Below are positions 24,394-29,677 of a DNA stretch of 43,932 bases, piece after piece (the stretch's first letter is position 1; each line of letters starts with the position of its first letter). The notes beneath the pieces are model-generated. The model saw only the letters and a list, made by a program, of their open reading frames with translations, did not search any database and had not been told where the DNA came from. The stretch lies in contig JANWYE010000007.1 of the NCBI GenBank assembly GCA_025057175.1, forward strand, positions 1 through 43,932, given 5' to 3'. The DNA is from Chloroflexus sp. (GTDB lineage: Bacteria; Chloroflexota; Chloroflexia; Chloroflexales; Chloroflexaceae). The translations under genes were made by a program, and so were the position numbers.

Positions 24394-25521
24394 CTAATCG
24401 GCAAATGCGCCCTGCTGCGCGGCGGTTTGGCGCGCGGCACGGCGATCAGCGTTGATGCGGCGCGCCCGGCGCGGTAGCGGCGCGCGAAGGGGCAGGGCCG
24501 GCGCGGCTAGCAGTAAGATCGCTATGCCAACGCGCAGATCGAAGGCGGGAGCAATGATGGCAGGGAAGGGGTAGTAGACAAGCGCGGTGGGTTCGAGCAG
24601 GCGCATAGCAGCGACGGCGGCCAACCCAAGGCCAGCGGCGGCGCAGGCGATAGTGTCGTGGCGATGCCAGCGTTCGCGCCGGTAGGTGGTGCGCGGCACG
24701 CTCCGGCTGAGCCGGCGGGCTGCCCAGCCGGTGAGCAGCAGGCCAGCGATGCCGAGCGGAGCCATGACCGGCAGCGTGGCCGGGCCAGCCCACAACCAGC
24801 CGATCAGTGCGCCGGCCAGACTGCTGAGACCGGCCAGCAAAGCGAGCAGGCGGCCAGTGTCTGGCCTTGGCGTCAGGGTGCGCCCATAACCACGCGCCTC
24901 AAGCGCTTCGGCCAATTGCAGCGCCCGTTCGAGGCTACCGGCTAACAGCGGCCCGGCCAGCGCCCACCAACTGCGCAGGCTGCCAAAGCGATGGCCACGC
25001 GCGCGTTGGGCAGCGGTGATGTCTTGGATGGCCTGCACCAATCCCGGCGCAAAAGCGATTGCGATCGTGACTGCTAACCCAGCATGGAAGAGCGAGCGCG
25101 GCGCTAAGCGCAGCAACCGGTGATGATCGACCAGCGCATTGAACGCGCCGAAGATGAGCAGCAACGTCCATAGCCCTAACCCGCGCGTCGCCCCCCATGC
25201 CAACGCCTCGGCGGTAATCGGCCCGCCAAACACAATCCCGCCCAACCAGACCGGCAACTGGAAGGCAGGCAGCGTGACCAGCACCGTTGCGCCACGCGGC
25301 CCGCCCACCGTCACCACCGCGAAGATGACATAGCCGAGCCAGATGATCGCGCCGGCGCGGGCAAAGAGCGAAAAACTGCGCGCCAGCGGGCGATCGTCGC
25401 GCCGGGCAACGAAGACATACGTCACTGCCAACATGAGCAAGATATGGTAAAGCGGGTGTGGGGCCAGCGTCGCGATGGCAGCGGCGGCAACCAGCCAACA
25501 GAGCCATGTCCGGGTATGCAT
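24394..25521 (-). CDS. ecfT: ECF transporter transmembrane component EcfT, C-terminally extended
   Basis: 375 residues; start 25521 follows GAAAGG. It has about eight membrane helices. The two coupling Ala-Arg-Gly motifs that bind the ECF ATPases are at 174-176 (AQRARGHRFG) and 209-211 (LEARGYGR). Standard EcfT/CbiQ proteins end soon after at about 250-270 residues; this one continues about 110 residues with further helices. Position at the end of a riboswitch-led operon with cobC and cobS argues for cobalamin or corrinoid uptake. Neither ATPase nor S-component is in the window. A 259-base gap with a weak hairpin (25738-25768) separates it from cobS. Confidence 0.85.
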   Translation of the reverse strand: MHTRTWLCWLVAAAAIATLAPHPLYHILLMLAVTYVFVARRDDRPLARSFSLFARAGAIIWLGYVIFAVVTVGGPRGATVLVTLPAFQLPVWLGGIVFGGPITAEALAWGATRGLGLWTLLLIFGAFNALVDHHRLLRLAPRSLFHAGLAVTIAIAFAPGLVQAIQDITAAQRARGHRFGSLRSWWALAGPLLAGSLERALQLAEALEARGYGRTLTPRPDTGRLLALLAGLSSLAGALIGWLWAGPATLPVMAPLGIAGLLLTGWAARRLSRSVPRTTYRRERWHRHDTIACAAAGLGLAAVAAMRLLEPTALVYYPFPAIIAPAFDLRVGIAILLLAAPALPLRAPLPRRARRINADRRAARQTAAQQGAFAD

Positions 25522-25780
25522 AGCGAGCCTTTCTCTCGCGCCAAGGCGCAACAGGGTGTATTGAACGAACGTTTTAAGGCACCGCGACCCTCGCTGCCAT
25601 ACTTCTCATTTGTGGCCGGCCATCACGTTTTTTTGCCACGTTACTACCCATCGCCACATCTCATACATCACCCCCGCCGCGCAACTATTTCATTTCATTG
25701 CGAGGGTGCGTGGTAGGTCTAGCGCCATCGTGCTCCACGCCCGCAACAATCCCTTCCGAAAGCGGGCGCGCTTGCCGCGT

Positions 25781-26533
25781 TCACATTCTCACCGTCAGCG
25801 CCGCCAAGGCCACCACTTCGCCAATTTCGCACAACGCGCCATAGGTATCACCGGTAAGGCCGCCAAGATCGCGCACCCACCAGCGCGCCAGCAAATGAGC
25901 AACAACCAACACCAACGCCGCAGCGACGATCCCGGCGAGACCGGCGATTAGCCATGCGCTGCCCAGCATCAACAGCGAAGAAAGCCAAAGATCGCGCTGC
26001 CGGACGTATGAATTAAACATCCGGCCCAAGCCGCCTTCGCGGGCAGGCGGGAAACGATAGATGCCGTAGCAATCGGCCCAGCGGCCCAACATCGGCGCCA
26101 ACAGCAGCGCCGGCCATGCCACTGCCGCGCTGGCGACGAATGCCACCTTGAACAGAATCAGCACAATCAGCGCAATCGCCCCCATCGCGCCGATCCGGCT
26201 ATCTTTCATGATCTCTAGCTTGCGCTCGCGCGAACGCCAGCTCATCACCGCATCAAACGTGTCACTGAGGCCATCGAGATGCAGTCCACCGGTGATAATT
26301 CCCCACGTGGCGACGACCAACATGGCTGCCACCAGCTCACCCCACAGCAGGCGAGCCAGTGCATCAGCGGCAACCAATGCGCCGCCAATCACCAATCCGG
26401 CAGCCGGAAACCACGGAATCGCCCGCGCCACACTCTGTTCGTTCATCGGCGGCAAGCCGGGCAGCGGGATGATAGTCAGAAAACGGATAGCTTCGAGCAG
26501 ACCATTGGCAGGGCGGGCCGGCGCTTCACTCAT
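25781..26533 (-). CDS. cobS: adenosylcobinamide-GDP ribazoletransferase (cobalamin synthase)
   Basis: 250 residues, integral membrane protein. Start 26533 follows GGAG; the longer reading from 26581 has no site. The family motif GGLHLDGLSDTFDA (82-95) with Asp87 and Asp91 is intact, and the C-terminus has LGGLTGDTYGA. It joins alpha-ribazole(-phosphate) to adenosylcobinamide-GDP, the last assembly step of the nucleotide loop. Located 51 bases after cobC, and ahead of ecfT. Confidence 0.93.
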   Translation of the reverse strand: MSEAPARPANGLLEAIRFLTIIPLPGLPPMNEQSVARAIPWFPAAGLVIGGALVAADALARLLWGELVAAMLVVATWGIITGGLHLDGLSDTFDAVMSWRSRERKLEIMKDSRIGAMGAIALIVLILFKVAFVASAAVAWPALLLAPMLGRWADCYGIYRFPPAREGGLGRMFNSYVRQRDLWLSSLLMLGSAWLIAGLAGIVAAALVLVVAHLLARWWVRDLGGLTGDTYGALCEIGEVVALAALTVRM

Positions 26534-26584
26534 AGCCACACTCCGCAGCGGGTAAAGAATAGCTGCAAAGCAATCCAACAACGT

Positions 26585-27202
26585 CTAACCGTAGCGCCCC
26601 AGTGGCGGTACCGTATTGACTGTGCGGATAATAATCGACGATCCATACACATCAAGCGCGGTGATGCTCCCCAAATCAATTCGCCAACGCCAATGATCGG
26701 CGATCGGAGTATTGCAACAAAAACAGAGCACTAACTGTATCGGAGTCGCATGGGTCACGACCAATATCCGGCCACCACGATAGCTCACCAACAGCTCTTG
26801 CCACGCCGCCGCCACTCGCGCCGCCGCTTCAGCCAGACTCTCGCCACCGGTTGGTCGCCCATCCACCCCTTGCGTCCAGCGCGTTTGGGCATCAACCGGA
26901 AAGCGTTGCCCCACCTCACGGTAGGTCAACCCCTCCCACAACCCATGATCAACCTCGATCCAACGTGGATCTTCAATCAACGGAATAGAACGATCGCGCA
27001 TCAGTGCAGCGGCCAACGCGCGCGTGCGCTGAGTTGGGCTAACCACAGCGTGTGTGAACGGCAGCGCGCGCAAACGATGGGCAACGGCATCGTGCTGGCG
27101 TAGGCCATACTCGGTCAACGGACTATCGCCGCGACCGAGATAACGGCGGGCGCGATTAGCCTCGGTTTGGCCATGGCGAACGAACCAGATACTGGTGCGC
27201 AT
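26585..27202 (-). CDS. cobC: histidine phosphatase, probable alpha-ribazole phosphatase
   Basis: 205 residues. ATG 27202 follows GGAG. Phosphatase motif RHG (9-11) with nucleophile His10, conserved Glu90 in HGLWEGLTYREV, and the second histidine His151 in THATP. The histidine phosphatase family includes phosphoglycerate mutases, but the position directly upstream of cobS and downstream of a cobalamin riboswitch supports removal of the 5'-phosphate from alpha-ribazole phosphate or adenosylcobalamin phosphate. Confidence 0.85.
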   Translation of the reverse strand: MRTSIWFVRHGQTEANRARRYLGRGDSPLTEYGLRQHDAVAHRLRALPFTHAVVSPTQRTRALAAALMRDRSIPLIEDPRWIEVDHGLWEGLTYREVGQRFPVDAQTRWTQGVDGRPTGGESLAEAAARVAAAWQELLVSYRGGRILVVTHATPIQLVLCFCCNTPIADHWRWRIDLGSITALDVYGSSIIIRTVNTVPPLGRYG

Positions 27203-27255
27203 AACGTTCTCCAACCCTTCCCCCTGCCCCCGCCAACCCCGATCACCAGCCTCTG

Positions 27256-27330
27256 CTCATCGTTCATTCGTTCATTCGTTTTCCTCATTCGTTCATTCGT
27301 TCATTCGTTCTCCTCATTCGTTCATTCGTT
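27256..27330. repeat. 8-bp microsatellite at the end of the DUF4430-like gene
   Basis: Interrupted tandem copies of CATTCGTT (AACGAATG on the coding strand) run from inside the last codons of the gene past its stop. The unit is not a multiple of three, so slippage would alter the C-terminal tail and stop. Confidence 0.8.
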
Positions 27331-28178
27331 GACACAATTACAATTCCGCTGATCAGCAACACCACCAGCGCTACGAAGCCCAGCCATTGCCAAGCGTTGC
27401 CTGCCGCAGCCGGCGCAGAAGGAGCGGCGCCACCCGCAATTGCCGTGGTGGAGGTCACTGTTGCGCTTGGCACTAGCGTTGCGGTGGACGCAACGGTTGC
27501 CGTGGGCGCGATGGTCGCCGTGGACGCAACGGTCGCCGTGGGCGCAACGGTCGCCGTGGGCGCAACGGTCGCCGTGGGCGCAACGGTCGCCGTGGGCGCA
27601 ACGGTCGCCGTGGGCGCAACGGTTGCCGTGGGCGCAACGGTCGCCGTGGGCGCAACGGTTGCCGTGGGCGCAGCCGGCGCGGTAGATGTCACTCCCGCCG
27701 TTTCACTCCGGCACACATCGGCCAACTCCAACTCAGGCGGCACTGCGCCGCCACGAGCATCGCCCGGCCCCCATGCCCACCCATGCACATCGCCATCGCT
27801 AACCCGCACGCTACTTGCGCCGAGGTTGGAATAGCGCCACGCACCCGATTCGCGCCGGTAGAAGGCCCAATACACCGCGCGCCCCTGCTGATCGCGGGCG
27901 CAGAAGCAACTGGTGGCCGGGTAATCGCATCCTTCGCGCCCAATCTTGCACACTGCTGCGCCAATGCTGCTCTGCTGGCTGATCACCGGCAACCCGCTGC
28001 GTTCGAGCAGTTCCAGCCCGCTAATTGACGGTTCGCTAAACTCGACGCAAGCAGTAACGACCTCGCCATTGCCAAACCGCACGACGACACCGGCGCGGTT
28101 GGTTGCCGGCTGAGCGGCAGCCACGCCGGCGAGGAGCGCGATCGCGCAGCAGACAACAAGTTGGCGAACAACATTCAT
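27285..28178 (-). CDS. secreted, membrane-anchored DUF4430 (transcobalamin-like C domain) protein
   Basis: 297 residues. Signal peptide (1-22), a small beta domain (about 30-156), a TVAPTA hexapeptide stalk (about 170-250), a C-terminal membrane helix (about 266-282) and a charged tail. The beta domain matches the pattern of DUF4430, the fold of the intrinsic factor/transcobalamin beta domain: VVVRF opening, SGLELLERSGL, GAAVCKIG, a WAFYRRESGAW block and VRVSDGDVHGWAWG at the end. It has six cysteines (44, 77, 84, 91, 93, 156), likely disulfide-bonded outside the cell. The family call comes from pattern reading. AGAGG precedes the start; the upstream alpha/alpha-barrel gene ends 50 bases away. 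Confidence 0.75.
   Translation of the reverse strand: MNVVRQLVVCCAIALLAGVAAAQPATNRAGVVVRFGNGEVVTACVEFSEPSISGLELLERSGLPVISQQSSIGAAVCKIGREGCDYPATSCFCARDQQGRAVYWAFYRRESGAWRYSNLGASSVRVSDGDVHGWAWGPGDARGGAVPPELELADVCRSETAGVTSTAPAAPTATVAPTATVAPTATVAPTATVAPTATVAPTATVAPTATVAPTATVASTATIAPTATVASTATLVPSATVTSTTAIAGGAAPSAPAAAGNAWQWLGFVALVVLLISGIVIVSTNERMRRTNERMNE
27472..27690. repeat. 18-bp coding minisatellite (TVAPTA stalk)
   Basis: About twelve tandem 18-base units inside the DUF4430-like gene, the central ones almost identical. They encode a Pro/Thr/Ala/Val stalk between the ligand domain and the membrane anchor. Confidence 0.9.
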
Positions 28179-28228
28179 CCTCTCGCCCCCCGTACGGGAA
28201 CAGCGGCGCTGTGCCCTTGCGGCCCCTG

Positions 28229-29281
28229 CTACGCCCGCCGCTGCAAAGCTTTCCCCACCACGATCAACAGCAACCCGGCCAGCGCCAACAGCGGCGCTAC
28301 CGGCTGCGCTTCGCCAGCAGTGCGCGGCAATGCCGTCGCCGGCGCAATCAGGCTTTGAGCCGCCGGGATCGATGTAGTAACGACCGGCAACGCCCGCCCA
28401 GCCAACGCTGGAATAGCCTGATAGGTCGCCAGCGCATTATCATCAGGCATCGCATTCTGATAGCGGAATGCGCCGCTGCTGTTTTGGAACGCAGCCAACG
28501 CGCTGAGCGGCGTCGCATCGCCCTGCTTCCACGCTGCGCCGCTGGGGTCTTCGCCGAGCGCAATGATCGCCATTGCTACGGCTGCCGTTGAATTGGCATC
28601 ACTGGCGTTGCCGAACGCCGATGTCTGCGAATAAGGGAAACCGCCATCAGGATTCTGCTGGCCCCGCAGATAGGCGCGCGCCGCGTTCAGCGCATCGGCG
28701 GCGCGGGCCCGGCCAGCCAGCGCCATCACTGCTAGCGCCGTGGTGTTGGTATCGCTGCCAGTCGCCGCCGCGCCATCAAAGCTCCAGCCGCCATCGCGCA
28801 GTTGCAACGAAATCAGCCGGTCAATTGCTGCCGCCGGCGGTTGCGCACCCATCGCCTTGATCGCTAGCAGCGCCAGCGCATGGCCATACACATCGCTGCC
28901 ATACTGGCCAGTGGTTGCGCTATACGTCGAACCGAGCTGGCGCGCCAAATTGACGCCACCGAAGTTGAGCGGGTCGCGCCCGGCGGCAACTGCGGCCAAG
29001 ATCAGCTTGGCCGTAGCGCCGGCTGACGAAGTGCCGTAGGAAGCAGCCTGTCCGGCGAGATAATTCACGGCGCTGGCCGGTGGCTGCTGGCCGCCGGCCA
29101 CAAAGGCCACGACTGCGTCGGCGGTGTCGCCCGGCCCAAAGCCGGCAAAGCTGCCGTCAGCCTGCTGCTGGCCGGCAACCCACTGCAGCGCCGCAGCGAC
29201 CGCAGCGCTTTGCGCGGCAACCGGCTGCCAAATTATGGCACTCAAGATGATGGTCAGAAACAACGCAAGCACTCGGCGCAT
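28229..29281 (-). CDS. secreted alpha/alpha-barrel (prenyltransferase/squalene-cyclase-like repeat) protein, intrinsic-factor alpha-domain-like
   Basis: 350 residues; ATG 29281 follows AAGGA. Signal peptide (1-24), then helical repeats with the turn signature QxxDGGF/W: QQQADGSFAGFGPGDT (38-53), LRDGGWSFDG (161-170), QQNPDGGFPY (208-217) and FQNSSGAFRY (265-274). This is the alpha6/alpha6 toroid shared by terpene cyclases and the alpha domain of intrinsic factor. The acidic DXDD motif of squalene cyclases is absent, so binding rather than catalysis is likely. The C-terminus has LPRTAG (318-323), a hydrophobic helix and an Arg tail, like a sortase signal. First gene after the cobalamin riboswitch. 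Confidence 0.8.
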   Translation of the reverse strand: MRRVLALFLTIILSAIIWQPVAAQSAAVAAALQWVAGQQQADGSFAGFGPGDTADAVVAFVAGGQQPPASAVNYLAGQAASYGTSSAGATAKLILAAVAAGRDPLNFGGVNLARQLGSTYSATTGQYGSDVYGHALALLAIKAMGAQPPAAAIDRLISLQLRDGGWSFDGAAATGSDTNTTALAVMALAGRARAADALNAARAYLRGQQNPDGGFPYSQTSAFGNASDANSTAAVAMAIIALGEDPSGAAWKQGDATPLSALAAFQNSSGAFRYQNAMPDDNALATYQAIPALAGRALPVVTTSIPAAQSLIAPATALPRTAGEAQPVAPLLALAGLLLIVVGKALQRRA

Positions 29282-29383
29282 GAACAACTTCCTTTCGTTC
29301 ACCAATCCATCACGATCCGTTTGTGTTGTCTGAGTTTACGGCTGCGATAGAATCGGGCATCCCGATCTCACTGCGCATCCAAC

Positions 29384-29411
29384 AAAAACCCCTTCCACGC
29401 ATGTGGAAGGG
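29384..29411 (-). terminator. intrinsic terminator of the cobalamin leader
   Basis: On the minus strand, CCCTTCCAC (29411-29403), loop ATGC, GTGGAAGGG (29398-29390), then G and five Ts (29388-29384). It sits between the aptamer and the first start codon. An upstream stretch near 29468-29452 (GGAAAGGGGGTG) can pair with its 5' side as an antiterminator. Confidence 0.85.
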
Positions 29412-29490
29412 TGCATCGACGAAGGCAAGAAGGAATGCCAATCTTGCGCGCGCCTCACCCCCTTTCCAGCGCGGGTGTGACAGCGAACAA

Positions 29491-29604
29491 GTAGGGACGG
29501 GCATTCTGGCTTGTCGCCAACGGCGACCTACAGTAGCGTGGACTGCGCCGGCCTTTGACCGGACTTCCCCCAATTAAGCCCTTCGCTTCCTCCGGGCTCC
29601 CTAC
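29491..29604 (-). ncRNA. cobalamin riboswitch aptamer
   Basis: Read on the minus strand. Closing stem GTAGGGA (29604-29598) pairs with TCCCTAC (29497-29491). Inside are the conserved cobalamin-aptamer elements in order: TTAATTGGGGGAAGTCCGG, a CCGG/CCGG hairpin, CGCAGTCC, GCTACTGTA, a GTCGCC/GGCGAC hairpin and AAGCCAGAATGCC (the B12-box side). A further GC hairpin lies just 5' (29624-29607). Together with the downstream terminator it predicts transcription switched off when cobalamin is bound. Confidence 0.9.
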
Positions 29605-29648
29605 CGGCGGGGTTATTACCCCGCAGTTGCTTATATTCAATTGCGCCG

Positions 29649-29677
29649 ATAGTACCACAATCGCTACCGCGCGTCAA
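29649..29677 (-). promoter_or_regulatory. promoter of the cobalamin operon
   Basis: TTGACG (29677-29672), 17-base spacer, TACTAT (29654-29649) on the minus strand; the start site would fall a few bases before the riboswitch leader. The rest of the gap 29306-29797 beyond leader and promoter shows nothing else definite. Confidence 0.75.

Follow-up and report, generated by a model that had tools for sequence, protein, structure and literature searches.

A cobalamin riboswitch-led operon of a Chloroflexus genome encoding a candidate two-gene intrinsic factor-like corrinoid capture system and an ECF coupling protein

Bacterial relatives of the animal vitamin B12 carriers were described by Burroughs et al. 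2007 (PMC1796856), who defined the SLBB superfamily and found bacterial transcobalamin-like domains with signal peptides, anchors and fusions to toroids on either side. Such genes were located in operons with CbiO and CbiQ and a role in B12 scavenging was proposed, with low-GC Gram-positives, planctomycetes and euryarchaea named as taxa and no mention of Chloroflexi or riboswitches (PMC1796856). In the animal carriers themselves, isolated domains bind cobalamin, the beta-domain binds it first and separate domains assemble on ligand addition, which makes a natural two-gene version plausible (PMC11107200, PMC5599065). Here, we describe a candidate for such a version on contig JANWYE010000007.1 (43,932 nucleotides, from now on referred to as the window), one contig of a Chloroflexota genome (G000) that is estimated to be 82% complete and whose closest relatives are Chloroflexus genomes. 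Five minus-strand genes follow a cobalamin riboswitch and encode, in order, an alpha/alpha toroid, a beta-domain protein, a CobC-like phosphatase, CobS and EcfT, the coupling protein of energy-coupling factor (ECF) transporters, separated by gaps of 50, 82, 51 and 259 bases. All were located where the preliminary description of this stretch had placed them (Table 1). We consider it highly probable that this operon serves the capture and import of corrinoids (B12 and/or cobinamide), with the two secreted proteins acting as a two-gene bacterial intrinsic factor on an ECF transporter.

The two secreted proteins and their folds

The proposed analogy with intrinsic factor is supported at the fold level for both secreted proteins, and by fusions of toroid to beta-domain and of beta-domain to ECF S component. 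For the beta-domain protein (P0002), a domain model based on a 35-sequence alignment reached a predicted local distance difference test score (pLDDT) of 93.2 and a predicted template modelling score (pTM) of 0.87. A Foldseek search with this model returned the DUF4430 structure 3u7z together with transcobalamin, haptocorrin and intrinsic factor as its first 18 matches. Using VIA-align, Z scores of 12.4 for 3u7z and 11.0-12.2 for the cobalamin carriers were obtained (root-mean-square deviation (rmsd) 1.8-2.6 Å, 96-101 residues); the top 15 structures were all 3u7z or cobalamin carriers, and the next unrelated fold scored 5.7. In the model, strands E43-48 and E51-57 come after helix 32-37, giving a predicted beta-grasp with a transcobalamin-like beta-hairpin insert behind the helix, the feature by which the transcobalamin-like SLBB clade is recognized.

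The protein had initially been termed DUF4430-like. This holds for its predicted fold, but not for the PF14478 profile, which finds no match in P0002 or elsewhere in the genome and reaches one of 35 relatives at E 0.13; DUF4430 membership at the sequence level is therefore not claimed. Profile-profile comparison of the P0002 family with true PF14478 proteins was weakly positive (E 6e-5, probability 65%), and the cobalamin carriers were not reached when the PDB was searched by sequence with profiles of the beta-domain (A1, A4 and A8) or with a C-terminal profile of four fusions (A7). Matches of P0002 to NCBIfam LpxA/LpxD and PHROG models were set aside because they stem from its PTATVA repeat stalk. 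The stalk (27480-27680) is encoded by an 18-bp repeat, and a GAATGAAC-type repeat just downstream of it (27240-27345) spans the end of the gene and extends beyond the stop codon.

The assignment of the first gene product (P0001) as a secreted alpha/alpha-barrel protein was confirmed by toroid models, and both proteins carry the expected N-terminal hydrophobic signal and C-terminal hydrophobic helix. The toroid ends in a sortase-like LPRTAG motif, a hydrophobic helix and arginines, and an LPxT-like motif terminates all 14 aligned toroid orthologues. Toroids with other arrangements were also observed. In two Sphaerobacter genomes (L106 6740-8527, L113 7001-8524) the C-terminus is a duplicated module (with EFVENGRTVQYFERARFEWHPG) that replaces the membrane anchor, and two Herpetosiphon loci (L054 7045-8136, L055 7049-8197) hold a second, more divergent toroid paralogue for which a beta-domain partner was not detected.

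A natural toroid-beta fusion from a more distant relative (L116) was modelled as a single chain, standing in for the window pair (pLDDT 88, pTM 0.76). The first 15 PDB matches of this model were all transcobalamin, haptocorrin or intrinsic factor with both domains aligned (E 4e-9 to 2e-7). By sequence, a cobalamin carrier was reached only with the two-domain profile A5, which matches human haptocorrin (E 4e-6) in a region that extends across both domains.

Riboswitch, gene order and natural fusions

The aptamer upstream of the toroid gene scores above the Rfam gathering threshold, in agreement with the riboswitch assignment. A promoter-like site lies just upstream of it and a terminator is found between the aptamer and the toroid start codon. 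All 12 Chloroflexales leaders compared contain a GC-rich hairpin and a T run 48-66 nucleotides past the aptamer (90 in L057), and the terminator arms covary among leaders (CCCTTCCAC/GTGGAAGGG, CCCTCCACC/GGTGGAGGG, ACACCCTCCA/TGGAGGGTGT). The leader has the layout of a transcription-terminating switch. Genes under cobalamin riboswitches are generally switched off by B12. Beyond the Chloroflexales, the riboswitch is also present at 8 of 10 more distant loci and in Catellatospora. It lies on the opposite strand in Kitasatospora (L119) and was not detected at L093, L109, L111, L117 and L120-L123. In Catellatospora (L118 6329-14602), three matches to the B12 riboswitch are located between and next to two divergent toroid loci.

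Conserved adjacency of the pair to a B12 riboswitch was found throughout the Chloroflexales, where toroid and beta-domain genes are neighbours and the aptamer precedes 18 of 19 loci. The order toroid, beta-domain, (cobC, cobS), ecfT recurs in those loci that hold enough sequence. Since this order is kept across the Chloroflexales with the riboswitch upstream, the layout of the operon is beyond chance. Among 350 Chloroflexota genomes sampled, 53 match the pair, and in 35 of these the two halves share a contig and are within 6 kb of each other.

Several relatives encode the components as natural fusions. In L116, toroid and beta-domain are joined in one 547-residue frame in the order of intrinsic factor, followed by genes for S, T and tandem A components and cobS. 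Toroid-toroid-beta fusions are found in L134, L135 and L140, while in L107, L108 and L112 a beta-toroid-toroid fusion precedes another fusion, in which a further beta-domain is joined to an ECF S component, identified as PF12822 in L108. The full operon of L057 comprises a riboswitch, a double toroid, two beta-domain proteins and S, T and tandem A components, with an S component that is again PF12822 and not CbiM. In a Lachnospiraceae operon, a true PF14478 protein occupies the beta-domain slot between toroid and ecfT. In a Lachnospiraceae genome, an 807-residue frame (L117 9950-12373) apparently joins two ATPase domains of ECF type to an S component; it adjoins a toroid protein seemingly ending in S-layer-homology repeats.

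The ecfT gene was correctly recognized, its product belonging to the CbiQ family and containing two ARG motifs (residues 174 and 209) as well as a C-terminal extension. S component orthologues were identified in 10 of 11 Chloroflexales genomes searched, mostly outside the operon and without a riboswitch. A tandem ATPase was found in 6 of 7 genomes searched and lies within the operons of L057, L110, L114 and L116. Regarding the two remaining genes, the assignment of cobS stands, with a score above the TIGR00317 cut-off. For the cobC-like gene, TIGR03162 (CobC) is the best phosphatase model, yet its score falls below the curated cut-off. G000 and most relatives encode cobU, and Herpetosiphon-type and other genomes retain the operon without having the corrin-ring gene cbiC; some of these are 99-100% complete. 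Elsewhere in G000 (contig C602, L058 229-1098), another B12 riboswitch is followed by a putative cobalamin adenosyltransferase gene (CobO/BtuR, judged by inspection).

Table 1. Features of the riboswitch-led operon in the window
Feature	Position	Strand	Evidence
Promoter-like site TTGACG-17-TACTAT with extended -10 TG	29649..29677	-	Alignment of 6 Chloroflexus leaders, site mostly conserved
Cobalamin riboswitch aptamer (RF00174)	29478..29618	-	40.3 bits, gathering threshold 31.5, E 7e-7, full model 1-189
Intrinsic terminator, hairpin with downstream T run (riboswitch expression platform)	29390..29411	-	12/12 leaders, compensatory changes
Secreted alpha/alpha toroid, 350 aa; signal peptide, C-terminal LPRTAG and hydrophobic helix	28229..29281	-	PF13249 and PF13243 above cut-off
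Secreted beta-domain protein, 297 aa	27285..28178	-	Model pLDDT 93; fold match; without PF14478
Parts of the beta-domain protein: signal peptide, beta-grasp at about residues 23-156 (transcobalamin-like), Pro/Thr-rich repeat stalk, C-terminal membrane helix			
cobC-like histidine phosphatase (alpha-ribazole phosphatase family)	26585..27202	-	PF00300; TIGR03162 144.6 bits, cut-off 162.9
cobS, adenosylcobinamide-GDP ribazoletransferase	25781..26533	-	PF02654; TIGR00317 155.4 bits, cut-off 110
ecfT, CbiQ-family ECF transmembrane coupling protein	24394..25521	-	PF02361 46.6 bits, cut-off 25

Proposed corrinoid capture and alternative explanations

The riboswitch, cobS and the retention of the system in genomes without cbiC point to the relevance of B12 for this operon. 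Gene order, riboswitch and terminator, folds, fusions and co-conservation are the data on which the proposed function rests, and from here we infer the ligand, the two-chain clamp, the hand-over, the sign of regulation and the role of CobC and CobS. Under B12 scarcity, the riboswitch would let RNA polymerase read through the terminator. A corrinoid would then be captured by the beta-grasp protein, which its Pro/Thr-rich stalk keeps at the membrane, and the separately anchored toroid may close over the corrinoid held by the beta-domain. The ligand would be handed to an ECF S component, which is encoded elsewhere in most relatives and in the same operon or fused to a beta-domain in others, and imported by EcfT with tandem EcfA ATPases. 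In the beta-domain/S fusions, the beta-domain would sit at the entrance to the importer. CobC and CobS may finally complete the nucleotide loop on salvaged corrinoids.

A number of observations weigh against this proposal. Compared with holo carriers, the L116 model shows an rmsd of about 21 Å over both domains, and the apo model thus does not reproduce the holo domain placement. The L116 toroid alone aligns with squalene-hopene cyclases at a Z score of 26 vs 19.9 for the whole model with intrinsic factor, and the toroid taken alone is closer to these cyclases than to the cobalamin carriers in both fold and sequence. PF01122, the family of the animal cobalamin carriers, has no match to P0001 up to E 10, with a best score among relatives of E 0.051. 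Searches of the window's genome, 82% complete, did not find an ECF S component or a tandem ATPase. Further, cobC and cobS are part of Chloroflexaceae operons, several operons with toroid, beta-domain and ecfT lack them, and no riboswitch was found at the Chloroflexus locus L044 when it was searched again with permissive filters. Finally, the window's genome contains a B12-riboswitch locus (C97, L060 1330-7094) that encodes an ABC ATPase, a BtuC-like permease and a lipoprotein resembling periplasmic binding proteins (PF01497), which is a putative parallel B12 uptake route of BtuF/C/D type.

The closeness of the toroid to squalene-hopene cyclases could also mean that it is a terpene cyclase-like enzyme or an adhesin, unrelated to the beta-domain protein, with the riboswitch reflecting B12-dependent metabolism and not capture. 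Given that all 14 toroid orthologues lack DxDD, the class II terpene cyclase motif, that the toroid is secreted and anchored, and that it is strictly paired with beta-domain and ECF genes, fusions included, we give this explanation hardly any credence. Nearly as improbable is a CbiMNQO-type cobalt (or nickel) ECF transporter under B12 control with the secreted proteins as metal-binding accessories. Cobalt importers are frequent targets of B12 riboswitches, EcfT belongs to the CbiQ family, and the nearest solved DUF4430 structure (3u7z) is titled 'putative metal binding protein'. However, the folds of the secreted proteins are those of carriers of organic corrinoids, the complete operon has a PF12822 protein and not CbiM as its S component, and nearly or fully complete genomes lacking cbiC, which would gain little from cobalt for corrin synthesis, keep the operon; a cobalt role is therefore unlikely. 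In addition, Chloroflexus aurantiacus has separate cbiMNQO genes (PMC3150298).

A third explanation overlaps with corrinoid capture as proposed here and keeps its mechanism, differing in that the ligand would be a corrinoid precursor or fragment (cobinamide, cobyrinate or alpha-ribazole) instead of complete cobalamin. The presence of cobC and cobS in Chloroflexaceae operons and of cobU in G000 and most relatives fits with cobinamide salvage. An isolated transcobalamin beta-domain was crystallized with cobinamide (PMC5599065), and cbrUVT has been assigned to cobyrinate diamide uptake in gut-genome reconstructions (PMC8123684). On the other hand, the operons without cobC and cobS do not fit such a specialization, and B12 transporters usually take up both cobalamin and cobinamide (PMC5997447). 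A ligand restricted to precursors thus seems possible, if somewhat doubtful.

Comparison with known B12 capture and transport systems

To our knowledge, ECF transporters are generally held to function without an external binding protein. We think it fairly likely, with some reservation, that the operon described here represents a B12-specific ECF transporter with its own extracellular trap, consisting of two proteins assembled by the corrinoid and in some genomes joined to the S component. If true, a two-protein trap on an ECF transporter would be a hybrid importer as well as a working bacterial counterpart of intrinsic factor. The system also suggests a route by which Chloroflexota, genomes without the corrin-ring gene among them, capture B12 at the cell surface. 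The pair is compact and split by nature, its regulation is clear and the fusions can serve as controls, so that ligand-induced assembly and hand-over to the S component are directly testable.

The idea of a bacterial intrinsic factor is prior art, as it was predicted by Burroughs et al. 2007 (PMC1796856), and no experimental test of the bacterial origin proposed there for animal B12 carriers was found in the literature searched. As far as this literature shows, the new elements are a Chloroflexota branch beyond PF14478, the split genes, the riboswitch with a covarying terminator and the S/beta fusion.

Among the nearest known systems, Streptomyces proteins of the NCBIfam families SCO2321 and SCO2322 are distant matches to toroid (116.6 bits, cut-off 300) and beta-domain protein (28.3, cut-off 85), far under the cut-offs, and in the Kitasatospora and Catellatospora loci the neighbouring genes are the same as here. 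BtuG and BtuH of Bacteroides capture B12 at the surface or in the periplasm for import, together with BtuFCD, and their folds and transporter types are unrelated to the operon described here. Similar in transporter type is ECF-CbrT of Lactobacillus delbrueckii, which consists of EcfT, two ATPases and an S component and imports cobalamin and cobinamide (PMC5997447). For ECF-CbrT, binding by the S component has been described (PMC5997447), whereas the operons considered here combine ECF genes with extracellular proteins dedicated to the proposed capture.

Animal intrinsic factor, transcobalamin and haptocorrin share with the window pair the combination of toroid and beta-domain, with Z scores of 11-12 for the beta fold, and with some relatives the single chain in the same domain order. 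They differ from the window pair, which is not a member of the animal family, in that the latter consists of two chains with membrane or wall anchors, does not match PF01122 and has a more cyclase-like toroid. The transcobalamin-like SLBB clade has the most in common with the operon, namely a secreted or anchored beta-grasp protein, an adjacent or fused toroid, a CbiQ-like gene in the operon of the window and a CbiO-like tandem ATPase in the operons of relatives, though not in the window. What sets the Chloroflexota system apart from this clade is its division into two genes, its position beyond the reach of PF14478, its leading riboswitch and an S component that could be identified and is fused to a beta-domain in three genomes.

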